Origin: Sphingomonas sp.
Lineage (GTDB): Bacteria; Pseudomonadota; Alphaproteobacteria; Sphingomonadales; Sphingomonadaceae
DNA length: 64,000 nucleotides
Reading direction: 5' to 3'
Assembly (NCBI RefSeq): GCF_019749955.1
Contig: NZ_JAIEPC010000008.1
Location: 1-64,000 of the forward strand
In this document: positions 4,618 through 42,984 of the stretch, piece by piece
Layout: each line of letters begins with the position of its first letter
Numbering within the stretch: position 1 is the stretch's first letter
Notes under the pieces: model-generated
The model's input: only the letters and a program-made list of their open reading frames with translations
Told to the model about the DNA's origin: nothing
Databases searched by the model: none
Translations under genes and position numbers: made by a program

Positions 4618-5237
4618 CAGCCGATCGCCAATTGCGTCAGCGCCGCGCCAAGCGCGAGAATGAGCGCGAGCCAGATGCGCGGGCCGACATAGAACTGGAT
4701 CATCGGCGCGGTCGGGAAGGAAAAGGTGGCAAGCGTGCCCGCCAGCTTGTCGGGATGGTGCTTGGCGAATTGCGGATCGACGACCACATTCATCATGTCG
4801 CGGCGGCTGCGGTAGCGCATCAGGCCGATGATCGTCCAACCCGGATCGGGCTCGGTCGCCCAACTGTCGAGATAGGGGCCGATCTTGCGCCGCACGATCG
4901 CGGGATGGCCGCCGTTCTTGAGCAGCACCGGCATGAAGTGCTTGGAGTAGCGTTGCAGCAGCGACACGCCGGGGACTTGTTCGCCGCTGATCGGATCGGC
5001 GACGGGTGCTTGCGTCGCCTTGACGATGTTGAACATCACGAAATCGCGCCCATCGTCGGTTTCGAGGAAGCGGCGCAGATTGGCCTTGGCTTCGGGCGGC
5101 GTATCCTCGCGGCCTTCGAGTTGCGCGAAATAGCGGTCGATTTCGGCAGGGTTCAGCTTGCCGCGCCAATTATCGTACCAGAGCCGGAAGGCACCGTAGA
5201 GCGCGGCCGCGATGCCCCAGATCATCCAGCCGCTCAT
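4617..5237 (-). CDS. hypothetical membrane-associated protein
   Basis: 206-aa ORF MSGWMIWGIAAALYGAFRLWYDNW..., coupled to its neighbours. Confidence 0.65.
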   Translation of the reverse strand: MSGWMIWGIAAALYGAFRLWYDNWRGKLNPAEIDRYFAQLEGREDTPPEAKANLRRFLETDDGRDFVMFNIVKATQAPVADPISGEQVPGVSLLQRYSKHFMPVLLKNGGHPAIVRRKIGPYLDSWATEPDPGWTIIGLMRYRSRRDMMNVVVDPQFAKHHPDKLAGTLATFSFPTAPMIQFYVGPRIWLALILALGAALTQLAIG

Positions 5238-6064
5238 CCTTGCCCCTGATTAATGACACTATACGTGTCAATAACAGCATCGGCGGCCAAGCGAAAGCCG
5301 ATATGCGCCGATGTAAAATCGGGCGCGACCGCAATGCGCGCGGCGGGGCGATAGCGCTGGCAGTATTCGGCGGCGCAGAGGAAGGAGCCGCCCTTCAGGA
5401 TGATCAGCGCGTCGGAAGATGCGGCAGGCGCGCAGCAGCCACCGGGGGGCAGCGCGGCGGCGGTCGTCGTCCTTTCCCAGACATTGCCGATCATGTCGTG
5501 GAGGCCATAGCCATTGGCGGGATAGTTGCCGGTCGCGCTGGTTCCCGCCAAATCGCGCGCGTGCCACCAGGGGAAGCTACCTTCCCAGAAATTGGCCATA
5601 AGCTGCCCACCCGGCATCAGCTCATCGCCCCAGGCGTAATCGGCGCCTGGCAGCCCGCCGCGTGCGGCGACTTCCCATTCGGTCTCGGTTGGCAGCCGCG
5701 CGCCTGCCCAATCAGCAAAGGCTTGCGCATCGGCCTGGGCGATGTGGGTGACGGGGTGGTCGGGCGCGCCGTCGCGCCAAGTTACACCGTTGGCAAAGCG
5801 CCACCATTGGCGGGGGTCGCTCAGGTCGACCGGGCCATCGGTCATCGCGAACACACTCGATCCGCCCGCGTGTTCGGCAACGGTAACATGGCCGGTGGCA
5901 GCAACGAAGGTCGCGAACGCGTCGACCGTGACGGGCGACGCTGCGATCCGGAATGCGGCCAGCGTCACCTGTCGCGCCGGGCGCTCCTCGGGATAATGGC
6001 GATCCGATCCGACCTGCCATATGCCCGCCGGAATCGTGACATTCGGGCGCCAGGCCTCAGGCAA
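5234..6064 (-). CDS. formylglycine-generating enzyme (SUMF1/FGE-sulfatase domain), predicted cytosolic
   Basis: GNVWERT...LKGGSFLCAAEYCQRYRPAAR...SAHIGFRLA with C-x4-C pair; start uncertain, TTG at 6064 overlaps the GST stop. Confidence 0.87.
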   Translation of the reverse strand: MPEAWRPNVTIPAGIWQVGSDRHYPEERPARQVTLAAFRIAASPVTVDAFATFVAATGHVTVAEHAGGSSVFAMTDGPVDLSDPRQWWRFANGVTWRDGAPDHPVTHIAQADAQAFADWAGARLPTETEWEVAARGGLPGADYAWGDELMPGGQLMANFWEGSFPWWHARDLAGTSATGNYPANGYGLHDMIGNVWERTTTAAALPPGGCCAPAASSDALIILKGGSFLCAAEYCQRYRPAARIAVAPDFTSAHIGFRLAADAVIDTYSVINQGQG

Positions 6065-7055
6065 ACAGCGCCTCGCAGCCAGTCCCCGCGAGCGCTGCGT
6101 CGACGCTGGCACGCGCGGCGCCATTGAGCGCGGCATATTGATCGCGCAGTGCCTTCAGGCATTTGGCTTGATAGGGGAAGGGTGCCTGCTCCCAAGCGCG
6201 CCCGTCGATTTCGGTCACGACCTTGTCCGCACCCGCCATCACAGCTTTCGCATTGGCGAGCAGCAGCGGGGCATAGGTCCGCCCGATTTCGCCGAGCAGC
6301 GCAGTGATCCCAGCCGGAAGGGCATCGACAGAGGCCCACTCAGTCTCGTCCTCACCCGACAAATCTTCAATGAAATTGGTCCAGGCGATCACCCTTGGCG
6401 CGATCTCGGTTGCGAGCGCCATCGGCGTCGGGTCGAACAGCGCGAGCTGAGTCAGCTGGCCGTAGAGCGCAAAGTCCGATGGCGCCGGCCGCGCGCCAAG
6501 CAGGAAGCGGTGCGCGCCGAAATGCGCGTCGAGGATCGTGAGCAGCCGGTGATAGCTCGCCTCGATCGTTGCGCCCGTCACCGCATTCGACCCGACATAG
6601 GCGAGCCGCGAAATCTGGCGATCGGCGAACGCCTTGCCCATTGTCGCGAGCGCCTCGTCGTCGAGCGGGCGCGCGTGCCAATTGGGCAGCACTTCGGCCG
6701 ACTTGCGAATGTCGGCGGCGTAGGACCAGCGATAATGGAACATCGCCTTGGTCAGCCATTCGTCGCCATAATCCTCGATCAGCGCATCGATCAGCGCGAG
6801 CGCGGGGTCGGTGGGGACGATCGAGCGGTCGGCATGCTCGGCTTCGAGCCGCCGGATGATCGGCGTCGAATCGGTCATCGGCGCGCCGTCGAAATAGAAG
6901 GTCGGCAGCAGCGCGACCTTGGGCTGCGGCAGCGTCGCGCGCGCGCGGGTGATTGGCAGGAAGACATAGGGCAAGCGCCGATAGCGCAGCACCGCGAGCA
7001 TTTTTCGCGTATAGGGCGATCCCGGTGACCCTGCGATCGTGATCGGTTCGGCCAT
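6057..7055 (-). CDS. glutathione S-transferase-like protein
   Basis: N-terminal thioredoxin-fold ITIAGSPGSPYTRKMLAVLRYRRLPY...PTFYFDGAPMTDSTPIIRRLE. Confidence 0.8.
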   Translation of the reverse strand: MAEPITIAGSPGSPYTRKMLAVLRYRRLPYVFLPITRARATLPQPKVALLPTFYFDGAPMTDSTPIIRRLEAEHADRSIVPTDPALALIDALIEDYGDEWLTKAMFHYRWSYAADIRKSAEVLPNWHARPLDDEALATMGKAFADRQISRLAYVGSNAVTGATIEASYHRLLTILDAHFGAHRFLLGARPAPSDFALYGQLTQLALFDPTPMALATEIAPRVIAWTNFIEDLSGEDETEWASVDALPAGITALLGEIGRTYAPLLLANAKAVMAGADKVVTEIDGRAWEQAPFPYQAKCLKALRDQYAALNGAARASVDAALAGTGCEALFA

Positions 7056-7144: not shown

Positions 7145-7453
7145 ATGGCCGACCTGAATGAAGTGACGCAGATCATGAGCGCGAACAACGCCTTTGTGCC
7201 AGGCAAGCGGATCAAATTCGACTTCGGCAGCGACGGCGTGATCCTGCTCGACGGTGTTGCCGAAACGGTCACCTCCGAAGACACTGACGCCGACACCGTC
7301 ATCAAGATGAGCTTCGACAATTTCAAGAAGATGGCGAAGGGCGAACTCAACGCTGCGGGCGCCTTCATGATGGGCAAGATCAAGATCTCGGGCGACATGG
7401 GGCTGGCGATGCAGCTCCAGTCGGTGACGTCGAAGATCAAGCTCGGTGGCTGA
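7145..7453 (+). CDS. SCP2 sterol-binding domain-like protein
   Basis: about 100-aa SCP2-like fold: DTVIKMSFDNFKKMAKGELNAAGAFMMGKIKISGDMGLAMQL. Confidence 0.82.
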   Translation: MADLNEVTQIMSANNAFVPGKRIKFDFGSDGVILLDGVAETVTSEDTDADTVIKMSFDNFKKMAKGELNAAGAFMMGKIKISGDMGLAMQLQSVTSKIKLGG

Positions 7454-9839
7454 CACGCCGAAGAAGGGCATCGACCGTCGTTCGTTGCTGATCGGTGGCG
7501 CAGCGGGCGCGGTCGGTGCGGGGGCGGTCGCGGCGGGCGGCATTTATGTGAAGGGCCAGCTCACCCCCTTCATCGCGCAGGCGCCGGTGGCCGAAGGCGC
7601 GCCGCCGCAGATCGCCGAATCCTATGCCGCCTCGCGCCCGACCGGCGACAAGCCGCCGCGCGCGCCCGAGGGAGCACCCAACATTCTCGTCATCATCCTC
7701 GACGATGTCGGGTTCGCCGATCTTGGCTGCTACGGCAGCGAAATCCCGACCCCGGCGATCGATGCGCTGGCGGGCAGGGGCCTGCGCTACGCCAATTTCC
7801 GTACCACCGCGATGTGCTCGCCGACGCGCGCGGCGTTCCTGACCGGGCTCAACCATCACAAGGCGGGGATGGGCTGGCTTGCCGATATCGATAGCGGCTT
7901 TCCGGGCTATCGGGGCGACCTGACGCGCGATGCCGCCGCCTTGCCCGAAGTGCTGCGCGATGCAGGCTATGGCACCTATCTGGTCGGCAAATGGCATGTG
8001 AACCAGTCGGCGTCGAATGGTCCGACCGGGCCGTTCTATAACTGGCCGACCAATCGCGGGTTCGATCACGCTTATTGGTTCCAGGGCCATTCGACCGATT
8101 ATTGGCGCCCCGGTGCGATTTTCGATGGGACGACGCTAGTCGACATCTCGGCGCGGCCCGATGCCGATCATTACTACGCCAGCGACGATTTCGCCGAACA
8201 GGCGGTGCGTTACATCAACACCCACCGCGCGGTGACGCCCGACAAGCCGTTCTTCGTCCAGCTCGCGTTTTCGGGTGCGCATTCGCCGCTCCACGCCAAG
8301 CCCGAAGACCGCGATGCCTTCAAGGGCAAGTATGACAAGGGCTGGGACGCGGTGCGGCGCGAGCGGCTCGCGCGCCAGCAGGCAATGGGCGTGGTCGCGC
8401 CGACCACCAAGCTGCCGCCGCTGTCGAAAGGCGCCGAGCCGTGGGACGGGCTGAGCCCGGAGCAGCGCCAAGTCTATGCGCGCTACATGGAAGTCTATGC
8501 TGGCGTCATTGCCGGGCTTGATCGCGCGATCGGTCGCGTGACGGCGGCGCTCGTCGAACTGGGCGTCGCCGATGATACGCTTGTGCTGCTCTTCTCCGAC
8601 AATGGCGGCAGCCCCGAAGGCACGCCGACGGGCACGCCCAATATCTTCGCGTCAGCGCTCGGTCGCGCGATTCTGCTGGCTGATGCGGCCAGGCTCGGCC
8701 CGGTGATGGGCGAGGCGGCGACTTTCCCGCATTATCCGATGGGCTGGGCCAATGCGTCGAACACGCCGTTCCGGCTCTACAAGCAATTCACCAATTTGGG
8801 CGGCGTCGCCGATCCGCTGATCGTCAGCTGGCCCAAGGGCATCGCCGCCAAGGGCGAAGTGCGCCAGCAATTCGTCCATGTCATCGACTTGTTTCCGACA
8901 TTGCTCGATGCGGCGAAGCTGAAGCGTCCCGAGTTGTACCAGGGTCGCCGCCAGCACCCGATCGACGGCGCCAGCTTCGCCGCGACCTTTGCCAGCCCGC
9001 AGGCCCCGACGCGGCGCGAGCAATATTATGAGCTCGGCGGCTATCGGGCTTACGAAGACGGCACGTGGCGGCTGGTGACGATCCATGAGCGCGGCGGCGA
9101 TTTCGCGGCCGATCGCTGGGCGCTCTATGATCTCGCGACCGACCCTACCGAGATGGTCGATCTCGCCGACAAGCACCCCGACATTGCGGCGGCGATGAAG
9201 GCGAAATGGGATGCGGCGGCGCGCGCAAACAACGTCTATCCGCTCGACGACCGCAACCTCATCATCAAGATGAGCCAGCAGCGCACCAAGGAAATCCGCC
9301 CGCTGTGGGAATTCCGCCCGCCCGTTCCTTACCTGCCGGTCGAGGCGTCGCCGCTCGTGTGCGGGCTCGATCACAGCTTCGATATCGTCATCGACCGCCC
9401 CGCCGATGTGCTCGACGGCGTGCTCGTCGCGCATGGCTCGGCGCCTGCGGGCTATGTCATCTATCTCAAGGGCGGGCAGCTTTTCTACGAATCGAGCCTG
9501 ATCCCGTGGAGCGAGCGGATCAGCGGTGGGCCGGTGCCGGTGGGGCGCTCGACGATCCGCTACGAACAGGTGATGAAGGTCCGCCCGTTCGAAGGCGAAG
9601 GCGCGCTGTTCGTCAATGGCCAGCCGCGTGGGCGGCATGTGTTCGACAAGATCATCGCGTCGCCCAGCTATGACGGCATGTCGATCGGCCGCGATTTCGG
9701 CGCGCCGGTCTCGACCGCTTACTCAGGGCCGAACCCGTTCGCGGGCACGATCGAGCGGGTGACGATCAAGGTCGACAAGCGCGCGCCGACCTTTCAGGAA
9801 ATGCGCCGCTTCATCCAGGCGATGCAGATTCGCGCCTGA
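7446..9839 (+). CDS. arylsulfatase with predicted Tat signal and C-terminal extension
   Basis: DRRSLLIGGAAGAVGAGAVAAGG Tat-like signal; PNILVIILDDVGFADLGCYG; MCSPTRAAFLTG signature; GTG start overlapping the SCP2-like stop. Confidence 0.92.
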   Translation: MADTPKKGIDRRSLLIGGAAGAVGAGAVAAGGIYVKGQLTPFIAQAPVAEGAPPQIAESYAASRPTGDKPPRAPEGAPNILVIILDDVGFADLGCYGSEIPTPAIDALAGRGLRYANFRTTAMCSPTRAAFLTGLNHHKAGMGWLADIDSGFPGYRGDLTRDAAALPEVLRDAGYGTYLVGKWHVNQSASNGPTGPFYNWPTNRGFDHAYWFQGHSTDYWRPGAIFDGTTLVDISARPDADHYYASDDFAEQAVRYINTHRAVTPDKPFFVQLAFSGAHSPLHAKPEDRDAFKGKYDKGWDAVRRERLARQQAMGVVAPTTKLPPLSKGAEPWDGLSPEQRQVYARYMEVYAGVIAGLDRAIGRVTAALVELGVADDTLVLLFSDNGGSPEGTPTGTPNIFASALGRAILLADAARLGPVMGEAATFPHYPMGWANASNTPFRLYKQFTNLGGVADPLIVSWPKGIAAKGEVRQQFVHVIDLFPTLLDAAKLKRPELYQGRRQHPIDGASFAATFASPQAPTRREQYYELGGYRAYEDGTWRLVTIHERGGDFAADRWALYDLATDPTEMVDLADKHPDIAAAMKAKWDAAARANNVYPLDDRNLIIKMSQQRTKEIRPLWEFRPPVPYLPVEASPLVCGLDHSFDIVIDRPADVLDGVLVAHGSAPAGYVIYLKGGQLFYESSLIPWSERISGGPVPVGRSTIRYEQVMKVRPFEGEGALFVNGQPRGRHVFDKIIASPSYDGMSIGRDFGAPVSTAYSGPNPFAGTIERVTIKVDKRAPTFQEMRRFIQAMQIRA

Positions 9840-10782
9840 CGGTGCGAAAGCCGATGTGCGAGGCGCCGGTGTCGGGCGGGCCTTCCTCGCGCGCGGCGGG
9901 GCGGTAGCGGTAGCAATAATTGTCGGCGCAGAGGTATGAGCCGCCCTTGATGACATGGCCGCCGCTGCCCATCGCGCCACTCGTCCATTCCCACACATTG
10001 CCGGCCATGTCGTAGAGGCCGAAGCCATTGGCGGGGAAGCAGGCGACGGGCGCGACCTTGGCCTTGTAGCCGTCGCCACCCTGGTCGACGACGGGGAAGG
10101 GGCCTTGCCAGACATTGACGCGCGCCGGGCTGCTGCCGTCGCCGCCGGGGGCCTGATCGCCCCAGCTATATTGCGCCGCGACCAGCCCGCCGCGCGCGGC
10201 GGCTTCCCACTCGGCTTCGCTCGGCAAGTCGCGGCCCTTCCAGCGGGCATAGGCGAGCGCGTCGGCATAGCCGATATGCACGACTGGTTCCTGCTCGTGT
10301 CCGGCGATGCTGCTGCTTGGCCCAAGCGGATGCCGCCAGTCGGCGCCGGGGATGATCTTCCACCAGCTGGCGGGGCCGGTCGGGCGCTCGCCGGGCTTGA
10401 GCGGCACGAACACCAGCGATGAGGGGACCAGCCGCTCGCGCGGCACGCCGGGGTAGAGCTTCGGGTCGGGCGCGCGTTCGGCGAGCGTGCGGTATCCGGT
10501 CGCGGCGACGAAAGCGGCGTAGTTCGCGTTGGTGACTTCGGTCTGGTCGATCCAATAGCCTTGGAGGTCGACCGGGTGCGGTGGCCCTTCCTCGCGCCGT
10601 TCGGGCCGCGCGCCGATGAGGTAACGGCCGGGGGGGACCCAGCGCATGCCCGAGTTGGTGCCGGGTTCGGCGGCGAGGGTGGCGGGGGATTTGCACGCCT
10701 GCTCGGGGACGGCGGCGGAGCAGCCTGCAAGCATGATGCAACCCAGCGCCAAAACCCGTTCGTGCTGAGCTTGTCGAAGCAC
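9811..10782 (-). CDS. SUMF1-type formylglycine-generating enzyme, predicted lipoprotein
   Basis: lipobox LALGCIMLAGC; WWKIIPGADWRHPLGP; LPSEAEWEAAARGG; HVIKGGSYLCADNYCYRYRPAAR; GASHIGFRTV. N-terminus uncertain (GTG 10782 lies in a repeat). Confidence 0.85.
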   Translation of the reverse strand: MLRQAQHERVLALGCIMLAGCSAAVPEQACKSPATLAAEPGTNSGMRWVPPGRYLIGARPERREEGPPHPVDLQGYWIDQTEVTNANYAAFVAATGYRTLAERAPDPKLYPGVPRERLVPSSLVFVPLKPGERPTGPASWWKIIPGADWRHPLGPSSSIAGHEQEPVVHIGYADALAYARWKGRDLPSEAEWEAAARGGLVAAQYSWGDQAPGGDGSSPARVNVWQGPFPVVDQGGDGYKAKVAPVACFPANGFGLYDMAGNVWEWTSGAMGSGGHVIKGGSYLCADNYCYRYRPAAREEGPPDTGASHIGFRTVRRESASPG

Positions 10783-10846
10783 CGTTCTTCTTTTTCCAAC
10801 CGCCGGAAAAGAAGTACGGCCCTTCGACGAGCTCAGGGCAAGCGGG
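10756..10846. repeat. BIME/REP-like paired hairpin, family B
   Basis: cgtgctgagcttgtcgaagcaccg ... ggcccttcgacgagctcagggcaagcggg. Confidence 0.85.
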
Positions 10847-10864
10847 ATTTTTGCATTGGCGGGC

Positions 10865-11944
10865 TCAGAACCGCCGCTCATGCCGAATCTCGTCGCTATC
10901 GGCGGGCAGCAGGATCTCATCCCCATCATGGCCGACGATCAGCTGCCCCTTGAAGCGCGCGCGCGCGTCGCCGACGAAGGGCACTTCGAGGATCGAATAA
11001 GGCAGCGGCGGCACGATGTGCGTCAGCAGCAGCACCTTGACCCCCGCGCGCTCGGCGATGTCGGCAGCTTGTTCGGGCGTCGCGTGATAGCCTTTGATGT
11101 CGTTGAAAATCTGCGCGAGATTGCCGCGGCCCGCGCGCATTGCCGCATCATGCTGCATCGCCACCATCCGCACGCTCAGCGCTTCGTGGACGAGCACATC
11201 GGCGTGGCGGGCGGCCATTTCGACCGATTTGGCGGGGGCAGTATCGCCGGTGATGACTACGCGCCGCCCTTTATAGACGAAGGCATAGCCGTAAGCGGGG
11301 GTGACCGGGCGGTGGTTGACGGCGAAGGCGAACACCTGAAGTCCGTTCGCCGCATAGATCAGCCGTTCGCCGCCATTGGCGGGCACTAGCTCGGGGTGCG
11401 GGGCGAGGCCGAAGCCGCTTGGCGGCACCACTTTCGGCCCGTGGTGCGCGATGCGATAGCCGCTGTCGAGCTTGTACGCTTCGTTGAACCCCGCCGTCAC
11501 CGTCTCGACGCCGGGCGGGCCATAGACCGGGAGCGCGGTCGCCGCCCCGCTCGACGCCCAGCGCTGGAGCATCAGCGCGCCGAGCGAGTCGATATGGTCC
11601 GAATGGAAATGCGTCAGGAACACCGCCTCGACCCGGCCCGCGCCATAGCCGATCCGCGTCAGATTGCGCACGCCGCCTTCGCCGATGTCGACGACGAACA
11701 CGTGCCGCCCGGCGGTGACGACGGTGCACGGTCCCGCGCGGTCGGGCGAGGGGATCGGCGAGCCCGATCCGCACAGCCCGACGCTCAGCCCATCGGGGCG
11801 ACCCTTGAACGGATCGGCCGTCAGCGCCGCGTCCATCCCGCGTTCGAACAGCGCGATGGCGATGCGTTCGCGGAAGATCCACGCGCTGCCTGCGACCAGC
11901 CCCGCGATCAGCGCGAGCCAGGCCAATACGCGCACGAACTTCAT
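10865..11944 (-). CDS. MBL-fold metallo-hydrolase (RNase Z/arylsulfatase-like) with N-terminal signal/anchor
   Basis: LTHFHSDHIDS metal-binding motif; hydrophobic N-terminus. Confidence 0.85.
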   Translation of the reverse strand: MKFVRVLAWLALIAGLVAGSAWIFRERIAIALFERGMDAALTADPFKGRPDGLSVGLCGSGSPIPSPDRAGPCTVVTAGRHVFVVDIGEGGVRNLTRIGYGAGRVEAVFLTHFHSDHIDSLGALMLQRWASSGAATALPVYGPPGVETVTAGFNEAYKLDSGYRIAHHGPKVVPPSGFGLAPHPELVPANGGERLIYAANGLQVFAFAVNHRPVTPAYGYAFVYKGRRVVITGDTAPAKSVEMAARHADVLVHEALSVRMVAMQHDAAMRAGRGNLAQIFNDIKGYHATPEQAADIAERAGVKVLLLTHIVPPLPYSILEVPFVGDARARFKGQLIVGHDGDEILLPADSDEIRHERRF

Positions 11945-25805: not shown

Positions 25806-25822
25806 AGCAATCACCGTGCCAA
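25806..25822 (-). promoter_or_regulatory. sigma54 (-24/-12) promoter for the flgB operon
   Basis: minus strand TTGGCACGGTGATTGCT matches TGGCACG-N4-TTGC exactly. Confidence 0.8.
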
Positions 25823-25862: not shown

Positions 25863-25911
25863 CGGCAAGCCGTGCGGCAAATATTTGCCGGGGGGCGGCA
25901 AGCGGGTGCCG
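25863..25911. promoter_or_regulatory. candidate enhancer (FlbD/FleQ-type) site cluster with perfect palindrome CGGCAAATATTTGCCG (25875-25890)
   Basis: gcggcaag...gcggcaaatatttgccg...gcggcaag between two divergent sigma54 promoters. Confidence 0.55.
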
Positions 25912-25953: not shown

Positions 25954-25970
25954 TGGCGCGGACCTTGCTA
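25954..25970 (+). promoter_or_regulatory. sigma54 promoter upstream of the second stator pair
   Basis: TTGGCGCGGACCTTGCT: GG-N10-GC spacing with TTGC. Confidence 0.65.
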
Positions 25971-26675: not shown

Positions 26676-27205
26676 GCACGGCTTTCTTCCCCGATGCAGC
26701 ACCGTCGCGGCCGATCTGGCTGGTGACGCTGGCTGATCTCGCGCTGTTGTTGCTCGGCTTTTTCGTGCTGGTGATGGCGCATCAAGGCGCTGATCGCCGC
26801 GCAATCGTCGATGGTGTGCGTCAGGGTTTCGCGGGTACGACGACATCGCTGATGAAGGTCGCCCCCGATCCGTCGCCGGTCGCCGCCGCTGCGATGTTCG
26901 ATTTTGCCGCCGGCAGCAGTGCGTTGCCAACCGCGCCCGAGGCCGTGATCGCCTGGGCACGCGAAGCAACCCGCGACCGCCGCGTTACCGTGCGCGTCAC
27001 CGGCTATGCCGATGGCAGCCCCGCCGATGTCGATCCCGTGACCGGCAGCGCCGCCCTGCTCGCGAGCGACCGCGCGCGCGCGATTGCCGCCGCGCTCGCC
27101 GACGCCGACGCCTTGCCGCGTGGCCGGGTGACGATTGCGTCGAGCGTGATGCCCGGACGGCGCGGCGTTTACCTGACAATTGCCTTTGCCGGGGAGCGGC
27201 AATGA
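26672..27205 (+). CDS. MotB-like protein, short (second stator B subunit)
   Basis: RPIWLVTLADLALLLLGFFVLVMA TM with Asp; divergent OmpA-like VTVRVTGYADG...ASDRARAIAAAL; ATGA overlap with upstream gene. Confidence 0.8.
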   Translation: MSTAFFPDAAPSRPIWLVTLADLALLLLGFFVLVMAHQGADRRAIVDGVRQGFAGTTTSLMKVAPDPSPVAAAAMFDFAAGSSALPTAPEAVIAWAREATRDRRVTVRVTGYADGSPADVDPVTGSAALLASDRARAIAAALADADALPRGRVTIASSVMPGRRGVYLTIAFAGERQ

Positions 27206-27236
27206 TCTGCCGCCCGGCAACCCCCTTTTGCCGCCC
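27184..27236. promoter_or_regulatory. candidate GGCAA/TTGCC site cluster upstream of flgA
   Basis: tttgccggggagcggcaatgatctgccgcccggcaacccccttttgccgcc. Confidence 0.4.
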
Positions 27237-27893: not shown

Positions 27894-28199
27894 ATGGTCG
27901 ATCGGATCAGTGCAGCGCCAGTAACGGCAACCGAGCGGGTGACCAGCACACGCACCGCTGCGCCTGTCGCCCAGCCGGTCGTGGCTGCACCCACGCCCAG
28001 CGCCGCCGAACCCTCGACCACCGCTGCCGTGCTGCAGGGGCTGGTCGGTGAGCTCGCAGGGTCGCCGCCGGTCGACGACAATCGCGTCGCGCGCATCCGC
28101 AATGCGATTGCGACGGGCACTTACCCGCTTTCACCCGAAAACGTTGCCGATCGTCTGATCGCGCTCAAGCTGAACTGGATCCCGCATGACCCGTCGTGA
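27894..28199 (+). CDS. flgM: anti-sigma28 factor FlgM
   Basis: C-terminal VDDNRVARIRNAIATGTYPLSPENVADRLIAL. Confidence 0.92.
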   Translation: MVDRISAAPVTATERVTSTRTAAPVAQPVVAAPTPSAAEPSTTAAVLQGLVGELAGSPPVDDNRVARIRNAIATGTYPLSPENVADRLIALKLNWIPHDPS

Positions 28200-28497
28200 T
28201 GCTCTGGTCGGCGTGATCGAAGCGCTCCACGCTGAAATCGCCGCGCTGAAGGCGAATGACGTCGTCGGGCTCGAACGCGCGACGCAGACCAAGCTGGTCG
28301 CGATCGACGCGGTTGCCGCGCTCGATCACACGCCGCCGACCTCGGATTTGCGCGCGCTCGCCGAAGAAGCGCACCGGCTGAACGAAACCTGCCGGATTTA
28401 CGTCAATCTGATGAGCGCCAATGTCCGCCGCCGGCTCCAGCAGCTCGCGGGCGACGGTCGCGCCGCCTATCGCCCCGGCGGTCACGCTTTCGCCTAA
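28186..28497 (+). CDS. flgN: FlgN-like flagellar export chaperone
   Basis: small helical protein directly after and overlapping flgM. Confidence 0.72.
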   Translation: MTRRDALVGVIEALHAEIAALKANDVVGLERATQTKLVAIDAVAALDHTPPTSDLRALAEEAHRLNETCRIYVNLMSANVRRRLQQLAGDGRAAYRPGGHAFA

Positions 28498-28670: not shown

Positions 28671-28687
28671 CTGGCACGAACCTTGCT
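28671..28687 (+). promoter_or_regulatory. sigma54 promoter upstream of the transglycosylase-flhA-fliA unit
   Basis: CTGGCACGAACCTTGCT exact match to TGGCACG-N4-TTGC. Confidence 0.8.
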
Positions 28688-29584: not shown

Positions 29585-31665
29585 TGGCCGGACTCGCATT
29601 GCCGCGTTTCAATGCAGGGCTGGCGGCACGCGGCGCGGCGCTGCCGGTGGCGATTCTGCTGCTGGTGCTGCTGATGGTGGTGCCGATCCCGGCGATCGCG
29701 CTCGATTTCTTCTTCATCATGAACATCACGATCAGCCTGGCGGTGCTGATGGTCGCGCTGAACGCGCAGAAACCGCTCGATTTCTCGGCCTTCCCAAGCG
29801 TGCTGCTGTTCGCGACCTTGTTCCGGCTGTCGTTGAACGTCGCCTCGACCCGCGTCGTGCTGGTGCATGGCCATGAAGGCGAAGCGGCGGCGGGCAAGGT
29901 GATCGAAGCGTTCGGCACCTTCCTGATCGGCGGCGACTATATCGTCGGGCTGTTCGTGTTCGCGATCCTCGTCATCATCAACATGATCGTCGTCACCAAG
30001 GGCGCGGGGCGTGTGTCCGAAGTGTCGGCGCGCTTCACGCTCGATGCCTTGCCGGGCAAGCAGATGGCGATCGACGCCGATCTGAACGCGGGCCTCATCA
30101 CCCCCGACGAAGCCAAGGCGCGCCGGATCGAAGTGTCGACCGAAGCCGATTTCTACGGATCGATGGACGGTTCGTCGAAGTTCGTGAAGGGCGATGCGAT
30201 CGCGGGCCTGCTGATCCTTGCCGCCAACATCATCGGCGGGATGATTTTGGGGCCGCTCAGCCACGGCATGACGATCGGTGACGCCGCGCATAATTATGTG
30301 CTGCTGGCGATTGGCGATGCGCTGGTTGCGCAGATTCCGTCGCTGATGCTGTCGATCGCCGCCGCGACGATCGTCACGCGGGTGACATCGAGCATGGATT
30401 TGGCGGGCCAGATCGGCAGCCAGTTCGGTTCGGCGCGGACGTGGACGCCGGTTGCCGCGATCCTGTTCCTGCTCGGCGTGATGCCGGGAATGCCACATGC
30501 CATCATCCTGCCTGCTGCTGCCGCTGCCGGATATCTGGCGTATCGCACCGCGCGCGCCGCTGCTCGCCCGAAAGTGGTGGAGGCAGCCCCGCCCGCCGTG
30601 GTCGATCCGTCGCAGATCGGCTGGGACGAAGTCGCCGACACGCTGCAGATCAATCTCGACATTGGTTACGGGCTGGTGCCGCTGGTTGATGAGCGGCGTG
30701 GCAGCCAGTTGATGGGCCGCATCACCGGCGTGCGCCGCCAGCTGTCGAAGGAATTGGGCTTCGTCGTGCCGCAAGTGCGCGTGCGCGACGACATCAATCT
30801 GCCGCCCTATGCCTATCGTATCGTGGTGGGCGGTGTGGTGCTCGGCGATGATGTGGTCTCGCCCGACGACATGCTCGCGCTCGATACCGGGCAGGCCTAT
30901 GGCCGCTTGCACGGCAAGGAAGCCAAGGACCCGACCTTTGGGCTCGATGCGGTGTGGATTTCGCCGGCGGACGCCGATGCAGCGACCGGCGCGGGCTATC
31001 TGGTGGTCGATGCCTCGACGGTGATCGCGACACATCTCAACCATCTGCTCAGCGCGCATGCCGCCGATCTGCTCGGCCAGGACGAAGTGCAGAATCTGCT
31101 CGACAATCTGAAGGAGCGTGCTGCCAACCTCGTCGCCGCGCTGTCGCCGCAGCCGGTGCCGTTGACGGTGCTGACGCAGGTGCTGCGCGGGCTGCTCGAA
31201 GAGGGAATTCCGCTCAAGGAATTCCGCCGGATTGCAGCGGCCATCGCGGTTGCCGCGCAAAAAACGCTCGATGCCGAGGAACTGATCGAGGCGATCCGCC
31301 CCGATCTCGGCGCGCTGATCATCCAGAAAATGTGCGGCCCGCGCGAGGCGTTGCGCGTGATGACGCTCGAAGGTCAGCTCGAAGCCTTGCTCGGGCAGGC
31401 CGTCCGCTCCGACCCGTCGCGCCGCCACGCGATCGAGCCCGATCTCGGCCGCCGCATTGTCGAAGCACTGCAACGCGCCGCGCAACCGCTGATCGACGAC
31501 GGCAAGCCGTTCGTGCTCGTCGTCCAGCCGACGATCCGGCTCGCGATCCGCAGGCTCGTCAAATCGGTGATGCCCGACACGCCGGTCATGAGCTTTTTCG
31601 AAGTGCCCGAAGAAAAATCGGTTGAAGTCGTCGCCGTCATCGGTGCGCCGGCGGCGCTTGCATGA
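29584..31665 (+). CDS. flhA: flagellar export apparatus protein FlhA
   Basis: PLDFSAFPSVLLFATLFRLSLNVASTRVVL; RFTLDALPGKQMAIDADLNAGLI. Confidence 0.98.
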   Translation: MAGLALPRFNAGLAARGAALPVAILLLVLLMVVPIPAIALDFFFIMNITISLAVLMVALNAQKPLDFSAFPSVLLFATLFRLSLNVASTRVVLVHGHEGEAAAGKVIEAFGTFLIGGDYIVGLFVFAILVIINMIVVTKGAGRVSEVSARFTLDALPGKQMAIDADLNAGLITPDEAKARRIEVSTEADFYGSMDGSSKFVKGDAIAGLLILAANIIGGMILGPLSHGMTIGDAAHNYVLLAIGDALVAQIPSLMLSIAAATIVTRVTSSMDLAGQIGSQFGSARTWTPVAAILFLLGVMPGMPHAIILPAAAAAGYLAYRTARAAARPKVVEAAPPAVVDPSQIGWDEVADTLQINLDIGYGLVPLVDERRGSQLMGRITGVRRQLSKELGFVVPQVRVRDDINLPPYAYRIVVGGVVLGDDVVSPDDMLALDTGQAYGRLHGKEAKDPTFGLDAVWISPADADAATGAGYLVVDASTVIATHLNHLLSAHAADLLGQDEVQNLLDNLKERAANLVAALSPQPVPLTVLTQVLRGLLEEGIPLKEFRRIAAAIAVAAQKTLDAEELIEAIRPDLGALIIQKMCGPREALRVMTLEGQLEALLGQAVRSDPSRRHAIEPDLGRRIVEALQRAAQPLIDDGKPFVLVVQPTIRLAIRRLVKSVMPDTPVMSFFEVPEEKSVEVVAVIGAPAALA

Positions 31666-32414
31666 CCGCGCCGCCTCTCCACCAGGCTTTCGAGGCCGCC
31701 ACGCCGCTCGTCTATGGCCGCAAGGGCAAGATGCGCCCCGATCTGGCGGCGCTCGCGAAGAAGCACGCGCCGCTCGTCCGCCGGGTCGCGTGGCACGTGC
31801 ACGGCAGCATGAGCAGCGCGATCGAGATTGAGGATCTGATCCAGATCGGCCTCGTCGCGCTGATCGAAGCCGCGTCGTCGTTCGAGGATCGCGGGCTCGT
31901 CACCTTCGAGCAATATCTGCTGACGCGGGTGCGCGGGTCGATGATCGACGAGCTGCGGCGACAGGCGACGATCACGCGCGGGGCGATGCGCCGCCGCAAA
32001 GCCTATCAGGAAACCGTCGCGGCTTTGGTTGCTGAGACCGGCAAACGGCCCGACGAAGCCGTGGTTGCCGCCAAGCTCGGCGTCGGCGTCGACAAGCTGC
32101 GCTCGGACTATGCGACTGCCGAGCCGGTGATGTTTGATTCGATCGACGATGTTTATCAGGACGAATCGGCGCTGTTCGCGAGCCACGATCCCGATGCGTT
32201 CGAGCAACTCGCCGATGCTGATCAGCGCGCGATGTTGGCCGCTGCGATTGGCGACCTGCCCGAGCGCGAGGCGCAAGTGATCCAGCTTTATTATGTCGAG
32301 GAGATGAACCTCGAGGAAATCGGCCAGGTGATCGGCGTCGGCTCGGCGCGGGTGTGCCAGATCAAAAAGGCAGCGCACGACAAGCTGCAACGGGCGCTGG
32401 TGCGCCGTTTGTAG
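31662..32414 (+). CDS. fliA: flagellar sigma factor FliA (sigma28)
   Basis: EIEDLIQIGLVALIEAA...FEQYLLTRVRGSMIDELRR; LPEREAQVIQLYYVEEMNLEEIGQVIGVGSARVCQI. Confidence 0.94.
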   Translation: MTAPPLHQAFEAATPLVYGRKGKMRPDLAALAKKHAPLVRRVAWHVHGSMSSAIEIEDLIQIGLVALIEAASSFEDRGLVTFEQYLLTRVRGSMIDELRRQATITRGAMRRRKAYQETVAALVAETGKRPDEAVVAAKLGVGVDKLRSDYATAEPVMFDSIDDVYQDESALFASHDPDAFEQLADADQRAMLAAAIGDLPEREAQVIQLYYVEEMNLEEIGQVIGVGSARVCQIKKAAHDKLQRALVRRL

Positions 32415-32664: not shown

Positions 32665-33474
32665 TTAGCGGAGCAGCTGAAGCACGCCCTGCTGCGACTG
32701 GTTGGCCTGGCTGATGAGCGCCGTCGACGCCTGGCTGAGGATTTGGGCCTTGGCGAGGTTGGTCGTTTCCACCGAGAAGTCGACGTCTTCGATCCGGCTG
32801 CGGGCATCGGTCAGGTTGGCGACATTGGTCGTCAGCGTGTTGACGACCGATCCCAGGCGGCTCTGCTGCGCACCAAGCGTCGCGCGAAACGTCGAGATGC
32901 TCTGGAGTGCGGCGTCGGTCGTGCCGAGCAATGCGGTCGCGGTCGCGACGCTGTTATCGGGCGTGCCAAGCGTGCCGCCCAATGCAATGCCGCTGATGCT
33001 CAGCGTAATCTTGTCGCCGCTGCCCGATCCGGTCTGGATGTCCACCGTCCCGGCGGCGAAACCGGCGAGCGCTACACCGTTGAACGTCGTATTCAGCGCG
33101 ATCTTGTCGACCTGCTGCGAGATCTGCGCCACTTCGGCGAACAAATTGCCACGGTCGGCATCGCTATAGGTGCCCGATGCCGCTTGAACGGCGAGTTCGC
33201 GTGCGCGCTGATAGAGACTGGTCAGTTCCTGCGCGGCACCGTCGGCGGTCTGGATCAGCGCAATGCCGTCGTTGGCATTACGGATCGCCTGGCTTGCGCC
33301 TTTGATCTGCGCGGTGAACGATGAAGCGATCGCAAGGCCTGCGGCGTCGTCTCTGGCTGAGTTGATGCGCTTGCCCGTCGACAGGCGTTCGATGCTGCCT
33401 GACAATGCCTGCGACGCGGCGTTGTTGGCATTGGTCGCCTTCAGCGCGGCGACATTGGTTCCGATAACAGTCAT
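32665..33474 (-). CDS. fliC: flagellin (copy 1)
   Basis: [51 protein letters not shown]-terminal [25 protein letters not shown]. Confidence 0.97.
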
Positions 33475-33540
33475 ATGGTCCCCCAATTCACTCTCGGGAC
33501 CCGCGCAACCCAAGATGGGCGCGATGCAGTCCTACAATAA

Positions 33541-33707: not shown

Positions 33708-34517
33708 TTAGCGGAGCAGCTGGAGCACACCCTGCTGCGACTGGTTCGCCTGGCTGATCAGCGCGGTCGAAGCCTGGCTGAGGATCTGCGCGCGGGCGAG
33801 GTTGGTCGTTTCGGTCGAGAAGTCGACGTCTTCGATCCGGCTGCGGGCATCGGTCAGGTTCGAAACGCTGGAGGTCAGCGTGTTGACGACCGAACCCAGA
33901 CGGCTCTGGCCGGCACCCAGCGTCGCGCGCTGCGTGTTGACCGCCGCAAGTGCGGTGTCGAGCGTGGTCAGTGCTGCCGTCGCGCCGCCCGGCGTGGCGA
34001 CCGTTGCTGCAAGCGCCGCCGTCAGATCGACGCCGCCGACGTTCAGGTTGACCGTATCGGCGCCGTTTGCGCCGGTCTGGATGGCAACCGTTGCAGCCGC
34101 CGTGCCGACCAGTGCGACGCCGTTGAAGGTCGTCTTCGACTGGATGTCGGTCAGCTGACCCTGCAGCTGCGTAACTTCGGCCTGCAGGTTGGTGCGATCG
34201 GCGGCGGCATATGTGCCCGAAGCCGATTGAACCGCGAGTTCGCGAACGCGCTGCAGAATGTTGGTGACTTCGCCCAGCGCGCCATCGGCGGTCTGTGCGA
34301 GCGCAATGCCGTCGTTGGCGTTGCGGATCGCCTGGCTCTGGCCGCGGATCTGCGCGGTGAACGACGATGCGATGGCGAGGCCAGCGGCGTCGTCCTTGGC
34401 CGAGTTGATGCGCTTGCCAGTCGACAGGCGCTCGATGCTGTTCGACAGTGCCTGCGAAGCGGCGTTGTTGGCATTGGTCGCCTTCAGAGCGGCGACGTTG
34501 GTTCCGATAACGGTCAT
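33708..34517 (-). CDS. fliC: flagellin (copy 2)
   Basis: [50 protein letters not shown]; same C-terminus as copy 1. Confidence 0.97.
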
Positions 34518-34645: not shown

Positions 34646-34663
34646 TTCGGCATGGGACTTGCA
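34646..34663 (+). promoter_or_regulatory. sigma54-like promoter upstream of the flagellar activator
   Basis: TTCGGCATGGGACTTGCA, GG-N10-GC. Confidence 0.5.
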
Positions 34664-34681: not shown

Positions 34682-34724
34682 GGCGGCAAGCCGGCGCGGC
34701 AATGCGGAAAAAAATTGCCGGGCA
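34682..34724. promoter_or_regulatory. candidate GGCAA/TTGCC site cluster upstream of the flagellar activator
   Basis: ggcggcaagccggcgcggcaatgcggaaaaaaattgccgggcag. Confidence 0.45.
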
Positions 34725-34790
34725 GGGGCTTGGTTAACCAGTGATTTACCATCTCGCCCGCACATTGGGGGCGACCAAGGGGGCTTTTTG

Positions 34791-36068
34791 ATGCGTTCGA
34801 TTTTTCCTTCTGCCGCCGTTCTCCGGCAGAAATACGCGCTGATTTCGTCGCTGCGCGCGCAGGGCTTCCAGCTCGGCTCGTTCGAGGATGGCAAGCCCGC
34901 GCCGGGCGATCTGTTCCTGATCGCCGAGGGCGAAGTCCCGCCGGCGCCCGCCCGCACCGTCATTGTCGGCAGCGAAGGTCGCCACGTGACGCCCTCGCGC
35001 GACGGCAATCCTGCGCGGATCGCTTATGGTCCTGAGGATCAGGCGATCGGCGATGCTTTTGCCCGCGCCTTGGTGGCAGGTCCTGACCAGCCGACCGCCG
35101 CCGACCCCGAAAGCCTCGCGCTTTATGCGCTCGCCGAACGCGTTGCCGCTGCCGATATCACCGTGCTGATCAACGGCCCGACCGGCACCGGCAAGGAAGT
35201 GCTCGCGCGCGCGATCCATCTCGGCTCGACCCGCGCGGCCAAGCCCTTTGTCGCGATCAACTGCGCCGCGCTGCCTGAATCGATGCTCGAAGCCTTGCTG
35301 TTCGGCCACCAGAAAGGCGCTTTTACCGGCGCGTCGTCAGGCGGCGAGGGGTTTTTCCGCGCCGCCAATGGCGGCACGCTACTGCTCGACGAAATCGCTG
35401 AAATGCCGATCAATCTTCAGGCCAAGCTGCTGCGTGCGCTGCAGGAACGTGAAGTCGTGCCGCTGGGCGCGTCGACCCCCGAGCCGATCGACGTGCGCGT
35501 GATTGCGTGTGCCAACCGTGACTTGCAAGGCGAAGTCGCCGCCGGGCGATTCCGCGCCGATCTTTATTACCGGCTGAGCGTGTTTCCACTCAACACCAAG
35601 CCGCTGGCCGAGCGGCCGCAGGATATTCCCGCACTCGCCGCGACCTTGGTGCTGCGCCACTCGCAGGGCCGCAGCGTGATCCCGTGGCCCGATGCCTCGG
35701 CGGTCGAAGTGCTGATGGCGCATGACTGGCCGGGCAATGTCCGCGAGCTTGAAAATGTCGTCCAGCGCGCGCTGCTGTTCGCCGCGGGCGACACGATCAG
35801 CGCGGCGCATATCCTGTTCGATCGGCCCACGCCGCTCGCAGCACCGCGCCGCGACGACGCGCCCGAAACGCTCAACAACATCGTGCAGATGCGCGAATTT
35901 CAGGCGATCCGTGACACGCTCGCGGCGTGCGGCGGCAGCCGGGTCGAAACCGCGCGGCGGCTCGGGATTTCGGAGCGCACGCTGCGCTACCGCCTCGCCC
36001 GGGCGCGCGAGCAGGGCGATGACATCACGGCCGGTCTCGGCGGCAACAACAGGGCGATGTCGGCATGA
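34791..36068 (+). CDS. flbD: sigma54-dependent flagellar transcriptional activator (FlbD/FleQ-like)
   Basis: AAA+ NGPTGTGKEVLARAIH, GAFTGA loop, C-terminal Fis HTH ARRLGISERTLRYRL; flagellar context. Confidence 0.85.
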   Translation: MRSIFPSAAVLRQKYALISSLRAQGFQLGSFEDGKPAPGDLFLIAEGEVPPAPARTVIVGSEGRHVTPSRDGNPARIAYGPEDQAIGDAFARALVAGPDQPTAADPESLALYALAERVAAADITVLINGPTGTGKEVLARAIHLGSTRAAKPFVAINCAALPESMLEALLFGHQKGAFTGASSGGEGFFRAANGGTLLLDEIAEMPINLQAKLLRALQEREVVPLGASTPEPIDVRVIACANRDLQGEVAAGRFRADLYYRLSVFPLNTKPLAERPQDIPALAATLVLRHSQGRSVIPWPDASAVEVLMAHDWPGNVRELENVVQRALLFAAGDTISAAHILFDRPTPLAAPRRDDAPETLNNIVQMREFQAIRDTLAACGGSRVETARRLGISERTLRYRLARAREQGDDITAGLGGNNRAMSA

Positions 36069-39916: not shown

Positions 39917-41238
39917 ACCGCTTCACCGGCGATTATCTCGATTCAGTGGCGCGCGCCGATTTCGCGCCTGCCCCGCGCGTGTCGGGGCGGTTGGCCTCGT
40001 TCGACGGCTTGTTGATGGAAGCGACCGGGCTGGCCCTGCCGGTCGGCACCGTCTGCTCGGTCGGTTCGGGCAAGGGCCGGGTAGAAGCCGAAGTGATCGG
40101 CTTTCGTGGCGACCGCACGCTGATGATGAACCTCGGCGGCTCGGCGCCGTTGCTGCCGCATGCGCCGGTGCGCCCGATTGGCCCGCCGGGGGAGGCCGAA
40201 GTCGGCAAGGCGCTGCTCGGGCGCGTCGTCGATGGCGCCGGCAAGCCGATCGACGGGCTGGGGCCGGTGCGCGGCGCGGGGCATTGGCCGCTCGGCGGCA
40301 AGCTGCAATCGCCGCTCGACAGGGGGCGCGTGCTCCAGCCGATGGATGTCGGCGTGCGCGCGATCAACGGCATGCTGACGATCGGCCAAGGCCAGCGTAT
40401 CGGCATCATGGCGGGATCGGGTGTCGGCAAATCGGTGCTGCTCGGCATGATTGTGCGCGCGGCCCAAGCCGATGTCATCGTCATCGGGCTGATCGGTGAG
40501 CGCTCGCGCGAAGTCGCCGACTTCCTCGAAACCAAGCTTGCAGGCGATGCGCGCGCGCGTTCGGTCGTGGTCGCAGTGCCGGCCAATCACTCGCCGGTGC
40601 TGCGCATCCGCGGCGCCTTGCGCGCCACCGCAATTGCCGAGGCTTTTCGCGCTGAGGGCAAGAATGTCCTGCTGATCATGGATTCGCTCACCCGCGTGGC
40701 GCATGCGGGCCGCGAGATCGGGCTGGCGCTTGGCGAGCCCGCGTCGGCGCGGGGCTATCCACCGAGCGCAATTGCGATGCTGCCGAACCTGATCGAGCGC
40801 GCAGGGACGTGCGTCTCGTCGGGCGGGTCGATCACCGCGATCTACACCGTGCTGGCCGATGGCGACGACGGCAATGATCCGGTCGTCGACAGCGCGCGCT
40901 CGATCCTCGACGGGCATATCGTGCTGTCGCGCCAGCTTGCCGAGCGCGGCGTCTATCCCGCGATCGACATTGGCCCCTCCGTCAGCCGCGTGATGACCGA
41001 TATCGTCGGCAAGACGCATCTGAAGGCGGCGCGGATCCTGCGCGGGCATCTCGCGACCTATGAGGAAAATCGCGATCTGGTGCTGATGGGCGCCTATCGC
41101 GGCGGGGCGGACCCGGAGATCGACGCGGCGATTGCCTATCATCCCGCGATCCTCGACTATATCCGCCAGGACCCCGATGATGTCGTGACGCTCGACGAAG
41201 CCGCGACCGAGCTGATCGGGGTGTTCGGGGATGGCTAG
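39910..41238 (+). CDS. fliI: flagellum-specific ATP synthase FliI
   Basis: GQRIGIMAGSGVGKSVLLGMI Walker A; RVAHAGREIGLALGEPASARGYPPS; start at MLNRFTGDYL. Confidence 0.97.
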   Translation: MLNRFTGDYLDSVARADFAPAPRVSGRLASFDGLLMEATGLALPVGTVCSVGSGKGRVEAEVIGFRGDRTLMMNLGGSAPLLPHAPVRPIGPPGEAEVGKALLGRVVDGAGKPIDGLGPVRGAGHWPLGGKLQSPLDRGRVLQPMDVGVRAINGMLTIGQGQRIGIMAGSGVGKSVLLGMIVRAAQADVIVIGLIGERSREVADFLETKLAGDARARSVVVAVPANHSPVLRIRGALRATAIAEAFRAEGKNVLLIMDSLTRVAHAGREIGLALGEPASARGYPPSAIAMLPNLIERAGTCVSSGGSITAIYTVLADGDDGNDPVVDSARSILDGHIVLSRQLAERGVYPAIDIGPSVSRVMTDIVGKTHLKAARILRGHLATYEENRDLVLMGAYRGGADPEIDAAIAYHPAILDYIRQDPDDVVTLDEAATELIGVFGDG

Positions 41239-41653
41239 GCGCGGCGTTCCGCTTGAGCGCATCCTGCGCGTGCGCACGCTCCAGCTCGGGCTGGTGCGCG
41301 CCGAAGAAGCGCAGGCGAACGAACGGCTCGCGAGCGAGACGGCTTTGCGCGAACGCATCGCCCAGCTAGCCGCCAATGTCGCGCCCGAGGCCGAGCGCGC
41401 CGGCGCCTTCACGCTGATGGCGGCAGCGCATTACCGCGAGCGCTTGAACCAGTCGGCGCAGGCCGCGGTCGCGCGTGAACGCCATGCCGCGCAGGGCGTC
41501 GAACAGGCGGCGCAGGCAACGCTCGAGGCCAAGCGCGACCAGACCGCCGTCGAAAAGCTGATCGCGCGGCGCGAGGCGGTGGCCGCGATCAAGGAAATGC
41601 GCGCGCTCGAAGAAGCGTCGCCCACCAAGCGGGTTCGGCACGATCCTTGCTGA
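41231..41653 (+). CDS. fliJ: flagellar export protein FliJ
   Basis: coiled-coil protein after and overlapping fliI. Confidence 0.75.
   Translation: MARRGVPLERILRVRTLQLGLVRAEEAQANERLASETALRERIAQLAANVAPEAERAGAFTLMAAAHYRERLNQSAQAAVARERHAAQGVEQAAQATLEAKRDQTAVEKLIARREAVAAIKEMRALEEASPTKRVRHDPC
41634..41651 (+). promoter_or_regulatory. sigma54 promoter upstream of fliK
   Basis: TTCGGCACGATCCTTGCT, GG-N10-GC. Confidence 0.7.
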
Positions 41654-41688
41654 ACGCCTGAGGGCGGTTGTGCCCTTGGGATATATCG

Positions 41689-42984
41689 ATGCTCGAAATT
41701 GCCCCGTCTCTATCGGCTTCATTGCCGGTACTCGCGCCGGTCGCCTCCGCCCCCGCGCCGGTCGTGGCCGTGCCTGGCGATTTTGCGCGTGCGCTCGCCG
41801 ATGCGAGCGCCGATGCGGTTCCGGCAAGCGACCGGCAAGATCTTGCCGCCCCCGGCAAAACCGCGCTTGCCGCTTTGCCGGGCACGGCGCCTGCCGATGC
41901 CAAGCCTGGATCGACGCCGGTGTCGCGTGTGCTGCCGACCAAGCCCGCCCCGGTCGATCCCGTGCTGCTCACGCCAGCGCCGGACGCTGATCGCGCGCCG
42001 ACCGGCGACGAAGCTACGACTGCCGACGACACCACGCCGGACCAGCCGCTGGGGCAGCCGGTATCGGGCTATCTGAGCGTTGTGCTGCTACCGCCGGTGG
42101 CCACTGCCGGTGGCGGTGGCGCCGCCGACGCAGCGCCCATCGTGCAGGAGATCGCGATTGCGGCGCCCGCCACGTTGCCCCGCTTGCCTTTGAAGGGCGC
42201 ACCCGCCGACGTCGATCCGGTCGCGCCAAAGCCGGTGACCCTGACCGAGCCGCCGGTGTCGCGTCGCTTGTCGCTCAAGCTTGATCCGTCGATCGAGGTG
42301 ATCGATGCCGGGCGTGCCGCGGCAACGGCGCTCGCCGACCAGCCGCCCGTCGCGCGCCCCGCGCTCAAGCTCGTCACGCGCGACTTGCCGCCGACCGTTC
42401 CCTTGTCGGCCAAGCCCGAGGGAGTGGTGGCGAGCGGCACGCCCCAGCCCGCCGTGCATGCGTTTGCCCGCGCGATTGCGTTGGCGCAGGCCAAGCCGAC
42501 CCGGATCGAAGCGCCCACCGATATCACCGACATTACGACCGCCGCGCAGGCAATCGCGGTCGGCGATGCGCGGCCCGTCGTGCTCGCACCGCGCGCGCTC
42601 GACACCACCCGCGAAGACTGGCCGCAGCGGCTGATCGACCGGGTCGACGCCGCGCGCGATGCTGCGAACGCCGCCGATACCCGCATTCGGCTGGTGCCCG
42701 AAGCGCTCGGCAAGATCGACATTGCGCTGCGCCAGAATGGCGAGACGCTTCACGTCCATTTCACCGCGGATCAGGCCGCGACGCGCGATCTGCTCAGCCA
42801 AGCGCAGCCGCGTCTCGCCGAACTCGCCGAGGCGCGCGGGCTGCGGTTGGGGCAAACCGGCGTCGATGGCGGCAGCAGCGATCAACCGCGCCGCCAACCG
42901 GTCGTCAGCGCGCCGGTCGCTAACCCTTCGGCAAGGGCGATCACGGCAGAACAAATCTCAGCGTCCGACGATCGGATCGCGTGA
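41689..42984 (+). CDS. fliK: flagellar hook-length control protein FliK
   Basis: Pro/Ala-rich N-terminus and C-terminal IRLVPEALGKIDIALRQNGETLHVHFTADQAATRDLLSQAQPRLAELAEARGL. Confidence 0.88.
   Translation: MLEIAPSLSASLPVLAPVASAPAPVVAVPGDFARALADASADAVPASDRQDLAAPGKTALAALPGTAPADAKPGSTPVSRVLPTKPAPVDPVLLTPAPDADRAPTGDEATTADDTTPDQPLGQPVSGYLSVVLLPPVATAGGGGAADAAPIVQEIAIAAPATLPRLPLKGAPADVDPVAPKPVTLTEPPVSRRLSLKLDPSIEVIDAGRAAATALADQPPVARPALKLVTRDLPPTVPLSAKPEGVVASGTPQPAVHAFARAIALAQAKPTRIEAPTDITDITTAAQAIAVGDARPVVLAPRALDTTREDWPQRLIDRVDAARDAANAADTRIRLVPEALGKIDIALRQNGETLHVHFTADQAATRDLLSQAQPRLAELAEARGLRLGQTGVDGGSSDQPRRQPVVSAPVANPSARAITAEQISASDDRIA
41821..41882. promoter_or_regulatory. candidate intragenic enhancer array (GGCAA/TTGCC half-sites; perfect palindrome CGGCAAGATCTTGCCG at 41833-41848)
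   Basis: ccggcaagcgaccggcaagatcttgccgcccccggcaaaaccgcgcttgccgctttgccggg. Confidence 0.5.

Follow-up and report, generated by a model that had tools for sequence, protein, structure and literature searches.

In the 64-kb stretch of Sphingomonas DNA analysed here (the window), the early codons of the flagellar gene fliK contain an array of CGGCAA/TTGCCG half-sites whose conservation points to selection on the DNA itself, beyond that on the peptide motif it encodes. It is highly probable that this array is a binding site and, in most cases, a downstream enhancer for the cluster's own FlbD/FlrC-like σ54 activator, acting on a promoter at the end of the preceding gene, fliJ. We base this assignment on the motif, its position, its rarity, its conservation beyond the protein, a two-site geometry and an association with a regulator gene. 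The start of fliK therefore seems, from sequence comparison, to be read as both protein code and control element, an arrangement kept across a bacterial family. The relevant features are listed in Table 1.

Table 1. Coordinates of the features of the window discussed in the text.
Feature	Position	Strand	Basis or detail
fliJ	41231..41653	+	Assigned by position, with fliI and fliK on either side; ORF list; orthologue adjoins fliI in relatives
fliK, hook-length control protein	41689..42984	+	ATG at 41689; Pfam PF02120 Flg_hook, E=1.3e-16
σ54-type −24/−12 promoter (putative), CGGCACGATCCTTGCT	41636..41651	+	Last five fliJ codons (RHDPC)
Candidate enhancer array, fliK codons 45-64	41822..41880	+	Sequence; conservation and synonymous-recoding tests
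Primary palindrome CGGCAAGATCTTGCCG (site A register, R-Q-D-L-A)	41833..41848	+	Exact CGGCAAN4TTGCCG
Degenerate second site (site B register, +20 bp, G-K-...)	41853..41868	+	Only left half, CGGCAA, intact here
Second array, with exact palindrome at 25875-25890	25863..25911	.	flgB side/motA-like gene; four half-sites
Third array, at flgA start, over end of motB-like gene	27186..27236	.	Four half-sites
Array upstream of flbD-like gene, with CGGAAAAAAATTGCCG at 34705-34720	34684..34720	.	Three half-sites
flbD-like gene, NtrC-family σ54 activator, candidate binder	34788..36068	+	Pfam PF00158, E=7e-65; PF02954, E=4.8e-11

The 3.22-Mb genome has its closest relatives in Sphingomonas (FliI identity of at most 93%). 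The flagellar genes are ordered flbD-like (34788), fliE, fliF, fliG, fliH, fliI, fliJ, fliK, fliL and fliM; the fliJ product had no match in Pfam or NCBIfam. A sequence-only reading of this DNA had placed a −24/−12 match, TTCGGCACGATCCTTGCT, at 41634-41651, overlapping the end of fliJ, and both its sequence and its coordinates were correct. The core of this match, CGGCACGATCCTTGCT, has one mismatch to TGGCACG-N4-TTGCW, and its GG and GC are correctly spaced for a −24/−12 element. The genome encodes one RpoN. Of 79 relatives, 76 retained CGGCAC-N5-TTGCT at the 3' end of fliJ. The bases between the two promoter elements varied over the 79 loci, for example GATCC, GATAT or GGTCC, with corresponding changes in the FliJ residues, and the Arg codon of the promoter is CGG, which has a usage of 17%. 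At some loci of other genera (L126, L127, L133-L135, L137, L138, L140, L141, L143, L147 and L149), the fliJ-end promoter reads TGGCACG-N4-TTGA(A/T). In these promoters, near the stop codon of fliJ, TGA consistently replaces the consensus TGC, giving a non-canonical −12 element.

The array starts 170 bp 3' of the promoter and comprises six half-sites within 62 bp: 41822-41827; 41833-41838 and 41843-41848, these two forming the perfect palindrome; 41853-41858; 41867-41872; and 41875-41880. The palindrome CGGCAAGATCTTGCCG and additional half-sites had been reported from the sequence alone as lying about 170 bp downstream within fliK codons, and were found at those positions. The array is the densest half-site cluster of the window; order-3 Markov sequences of 64 kb yielded at most three half-sites per cluster in 60 replicates. 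Exact CGGCAA-N4-TTGCCG occurs twice in the 3.22 Mb (41833 and 25875), each time in a flagellar control region. According to the sequence-only reading, a motif frequent in coding DNA would speak against an enhancer; with two exact copies, the genome-wide scan found it to be infrequent.

To evaluate the conservation of the array, we used 80 Sphingomonas-type FliI loci obtained in one scan, 75 fliK genes of which entered the recoding test. The exact palindrome was present in the 5' part of fliK in 64 of the 75 genes, and in 74 when one mismatch was allowed, in loci that are phylogenetically non-independent and with fliK start codons assigned by position. Within fliK, the exact palindrome recurred 179-365 bp after the fliJ stop and was found almost nowhere else in 21 kb. 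The density of exact sites was 3.05 per kb in the region 120-400 bp after fliJ. By contrast, there were no exact sites in ∼1.1 Mb of comparison DNA drawn from the same gene clusters rather than from whole genomes (flbD, fliE-H, fliI, fliJ, the rest of fliK, fliL, fliM and beyond). Recoding the first 150 FliK codons with pooled codon usage generated the exact palindrome in a mean of 1.0 of the 75 genes and a maximum of 5 (200 runs), as compared to the 64 observed. Synonymous codon permutation within each gene yielded a mean of 2.35 and a maximum of 7 (200 runs). The comparison of DNA and protein conservation in orthologues, suggested as a check in the sequence-only reading, thus revealed DNA conserved beyond the protein. 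Pure chance was ruled out by the rarity in the genome, the recoding nulls and the Markov cluster counts.

The start of FliK had been described as sequence-tolerant. This is not simply so: the peptide RQxxAxxG[KN]xLP is conserved over the site in most Sphingomonas FliK, and a protein-level explanation therefore needed testing. In the first G..LP peptide after codon 40, a peptide chosen blind to the DNA, Leu was encoded by TTG in 64 of 69 genes, as compared to a TTG usage of 8%, and GGC was present in 69 of 69. None of the 116 invariant Leu columns in fliI, fliG, fliM and flbD was TTG-dominated, indicating that codon inheritance is not the cause of TTG in fliK. Shared codon ancestry was rejected on these grounds. 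Part of the conservation of the site may nevertheless be shared with the FliK peptide, and the DNA and protein layers both look constrained over the array.

The array also has a characteristic geometry. A second palindrome lies exactly 20 bp from the first: at −20 bp, at least 9 of 12 positions matched in 53% of loci, as compared to a background of 0.08%. No other strong off-centre peak flanked the primary site across 79 loci. A 20-bp offset does not correspond to a whole number of codons, so the reading frame differs between the two copies. The exact palindromes were in the GKxLP frame in 53 cases and in the RQxLA frame in 11; in most relatives, site B is the one that matches exactly. This species has its exact palindrome in the RQDLA frame and retains half of the second copy. 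In the genus, the array is located 191-377 bp downstream of the promoter, and no helical phasing between promoter and array was evident over this range. Comparatively, the site is not tied to one distance or side, being downstream in the genus and upstream, within fliJ, in three other genera.

To investigate the distribution of the element, we extended the comparison to the order, in which 138 of 201 genomes yielded a FliI. In other genera of the family, 20 of 30 regions had sites in fliK or fliJ with no more than one mismatch, and recoding tests on 15 fliK genes of these genera yielded a combined P of about 1e-14. Three genera (g9, g16 and g26) have their sites in fliJ, preceding the promoter by ∼200 bp, with a recoding P of at most 0.001. 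The palindromes in fliJ of L136, L144 and L146 are 24 bp apart as compared to 20. The arrangement was absent from the regions fetched from outside families with a distant FliI. One record titled Microvirga sp. SRT01 (L116) contains a Sphingomonas-type flagellar cluster whose FliI is 81% identical to that of the window; this genome is probably mislabelled.

The presence of sites tracked that of the regulator gene: they were found in 20 of 26 regions with an FlbD-like gene versus 0 of 4 without. The six family regions with the regulator and no recognisable site in fliJ or fliK come from genomes in which the recognition-helix core of the regulator, SERTLRY, is unchanged, so site loss or drift is likely, rather than changed specificity. 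A change in the recognition helix accompanying loss of the fliK site was not seen, the core being the same with and without the site.

The candidate regulator has an AAA+ domain with GAFTGA and a Fis-type HTH, and its SERTLRY core is invariant across the family. Its best NCBIfam model was FlbD (NF050807), at 307 bits, below the 750-bit cut-off. There was no Pfam match to a receiver at the N-terminus. The first 100 residues (34788-35100) matched no Pfam family and were predicted with good confidence to adopt an alpha/beta fold; this region is perhaps a decayed or degenerate receiver. The closest solved AAA+ relative was FlrC (332.9 bits, ∼54% identity in the fold match). The structural model of the regulator, with a mean pLDDT of 74.5, confirmed AAA+ relatives only. 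FliX was not detected in the genome using PF10768, a search in which the Caulobacter control was positive. Searches with the window proteins in 12 classical-FlbD genomes detected no flagellar gene near the inspected exact palindromes; distant homologues or degenerate sites could escape such searches. The sequence-only reading had drawn a parallel with the FlbD-bound downstream ftr enhancers of Caulobacter. The association with a σ54 activator gene upheld one part of this parallel; another part needs correction, the regulator being only FlbD-like according to its score, the missing Pfam receiver match, its different helix and the absence of FliX. Together with the location of palindromes in classical-FlbD genomes, these data left a classical FlbD, and a strict FlbD ftr site, unsupported.

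Half-sites had also been reported from the sequence alone to recur at other flagellar control regions, as borne out by the clusters at 25863, 27186 and 34684. The second array is situated between divergent σ54 promoters, 25806-25821 (−) and 25954-25969 (+), and the flgB/motA-like arrangement is the same in relatives L178, L184, L187, L189 and L192. The array upstream of the flbD-like gene has a σ54-like sequence, CGGCATGGGACTTGCA, nearby at 34648, and autoregulation is possible. Of 72 relatives, 34 had a palindrome with at most one mismatch in the 250 bp preceding flbD, and one-mismatch sites were enriched in these 250 bp among the Sphingomonas-type loci. Clusters of three half-sites at 1052 and 26230, in other coding DNA, look like background. 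Eighteen exact palindromes were inspected in 12 further genomes of the genus; 14 of them fell in flagellar loci (fliK, the region between flgB and motA, and the DNA preceding flgJ-flhA or flbD), nearly all adjoining σ54 promoters. A perfect σ54 consensus, TGGCACGAACCTTGCT, occurs at 28672-28687 (+), 5' of the flgJ-like and flhA genes, without a palindrome nearby in this species; relatives L186 and L191 have an exact palindrome beside the equivalent promoter. Counts of exact palindromes were 2.5 in flagellated versus 1.4 in non-flagellated genomes of the family, a weak test because a reversed control pattern differed too (0.88 versus 0.38), probably due to base composition.

The mechanism that we infer, which comprises protein binding, looping, activation rather than repression and the extent of the operon, is as follows. 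The activator would bind the array, its dimers docking on one face of the DNA at two palindromes separated by 20 bp, about two helical turns. Dimers on the two sites would nucleate an activator ring as the protein oligomerises. The DNA would then loop ∼180 bp back to the σ54-RNA polymerase waiting at the promoter, which the activator would open through ATP hydrolysis. The fliJ-end promoter is predicted to drive fliK, fliL, fliM and further downstream genes. The array also codes for FliK residues, and selection would act on both layers. Overall, recoding-proof conservation, genome-wide specificity and the activator-gene association strongly support the suggestion of the sequence-only reading, a σ54 promoter whose enhancer lies within the Pro/Ala-rich beginning of FliK.

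Among other explanations, the palindrome could be a codon by-product of a protein-level motif, FliK requiring RQxxAxxGKxLP. This is consistent with the conservation of the peptide in most Sphingomonas FliK and with the excess of exact palindromes in the GKxLP frame. However, recoding of the same peptides gave exact sites in at most 7 of the 75 genes, as compared to the 64 observed, the rare codons TTG, CGG and CAA are held, and the DNA remains CGGCAA where K and N alternate. Moreover, this DNA word is repeated at a distance of 20 bp in a different frame, and it also occurs within the fliJ of three genera and between the divergent promoters at 25875. We consider this explanation very improbable, and as the sole cause it was rejected by the two synonymous nulls, the unbiased codon count and the invariant columns of other genes. 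An even slighter probability attaches to an RNA element, in which the inverted repeat would form a hairpin in the fliK mRNA with a 6-bp stem and a 4-nt loop. Across loci, it is the CGGCAA/TTGCCG bases that are retained and the four loop bases that change, and imperfect copies disrupt the stem without co-variation. In addition, the word at 25875 is upstream of both divergent promoters, and in other genera the word lies in fliJ upstream of the promoter. The hairpin was rejected based on this lack of covariation and on location.

The alternative that carries most weight, while still unlikely, retains the same activator and has the site act mainly as a repressor or roadblock, affecting either fliK itself or transcription that reads through from the fliE-fliJ operon. 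Elongation could be obstructed by a site lying in transcribed DNA, ftr sites mediate both activation and repression by Caulobacter FlbD (PMC3930126), and repression would leave a footprint identical to that of activation. Against this stand the constant pairing of the site with a σ54 promoter and the three genera whose site precedes the promoter and could not obstruct transcripts initiated from it. Activation from the array is the reading that we favour.

The proposed enhancer resembles the Caulobacter FlbD/ftr system, reviewed in PMC3930126, in its σ54 flagellar promoters, NtrC-family activator and enhancer that may be downstream of the promoter; titles cited in PMC3096577 place ftr2 and ftr3 downstream of the flaN/flbG promoter. 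It differs in that the regulator has neither a Pfam receiver nor FliX and carries the recognition helix SERTLRYRL rather than SIRTLRNKL, in that the site is fliK coding DNA, and in that the exact palindrome was not near flagellar genes in the 12 classical-FlbD genomes. Another Sphingomonas is reported to have a Caulobacter-type cluster with FlbD and FliX (PMC8921679), a system different from that of the window. FlgM-, FlgN- and FliA-like genes in the window (27894-28497 and 31662-32414) indicate that σ28 is used here, unlike in the Caulobacter-type system of that strain.

FleQ is likewise a flagellar σ54 activator with enhancers on either side of promoters; in the passages covered, downstream flagellar enhancers are described and its ChIP targets include fliK, and those passages report no coding-embedded, family-wide conserved fliK enhancer. 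The AAA+ domain of FleQ is more distant from the regulator than is that of Vibrio FlrC, the closest solved one. FlrC is a response regulator with a partner kinase, and downstream FlrC sites are known. In E. coli, σ54 promoters within coding DNA, some of them conserved, drive the next gene (PMC4591121). Unlike these intragenic sites, which are promoters, the locus described here also has a candidate enhancer array embedded in the next gene.

The literature searched contained no description of the fliK element in Sphingomonas. The novelty lies in the combination of promoter and coding-embedded enhancer and in its codon-level conservation. Based on the comparative data, this is probably a family-wide, deeply conserved dual-code element with a promoter in the last fliJ codons and an enhancer in the early fliK codons. 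The enhancer would move between neighbouring genes and across the promoter with its function kept, and would be read by a flagellar activator that lacks a recognisable receiver and has its own binding code. It offers a clean, testable case of coding DNA doubling as a bacterial enhancer, and the footprint at codon level can be measured across dozens of species. A further suggestion is that, over evolution, an enhancer can cross from the downstream to the upstream side of the promoter that it serves without leaving coding DNA. Finally, it provides a candidate binding motif for a little-described Sphingomonadaceae flagellar regulator, from which targets can be predicted.

Elsewhere in the window, two tandem, very similar flagellin genes were found on the minus strand (32665-33475 and 33708-34517). 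A close-standing group of genes at 855-2597 (−), 5234-6136 (−), 7446-9839 (+) and 9811-10929 (−), read from translations only, encodes two proteins bearing the C-S-P-S/T-R signature of sulfatases and two look-alikes of the formylglycine-generating enzyme.
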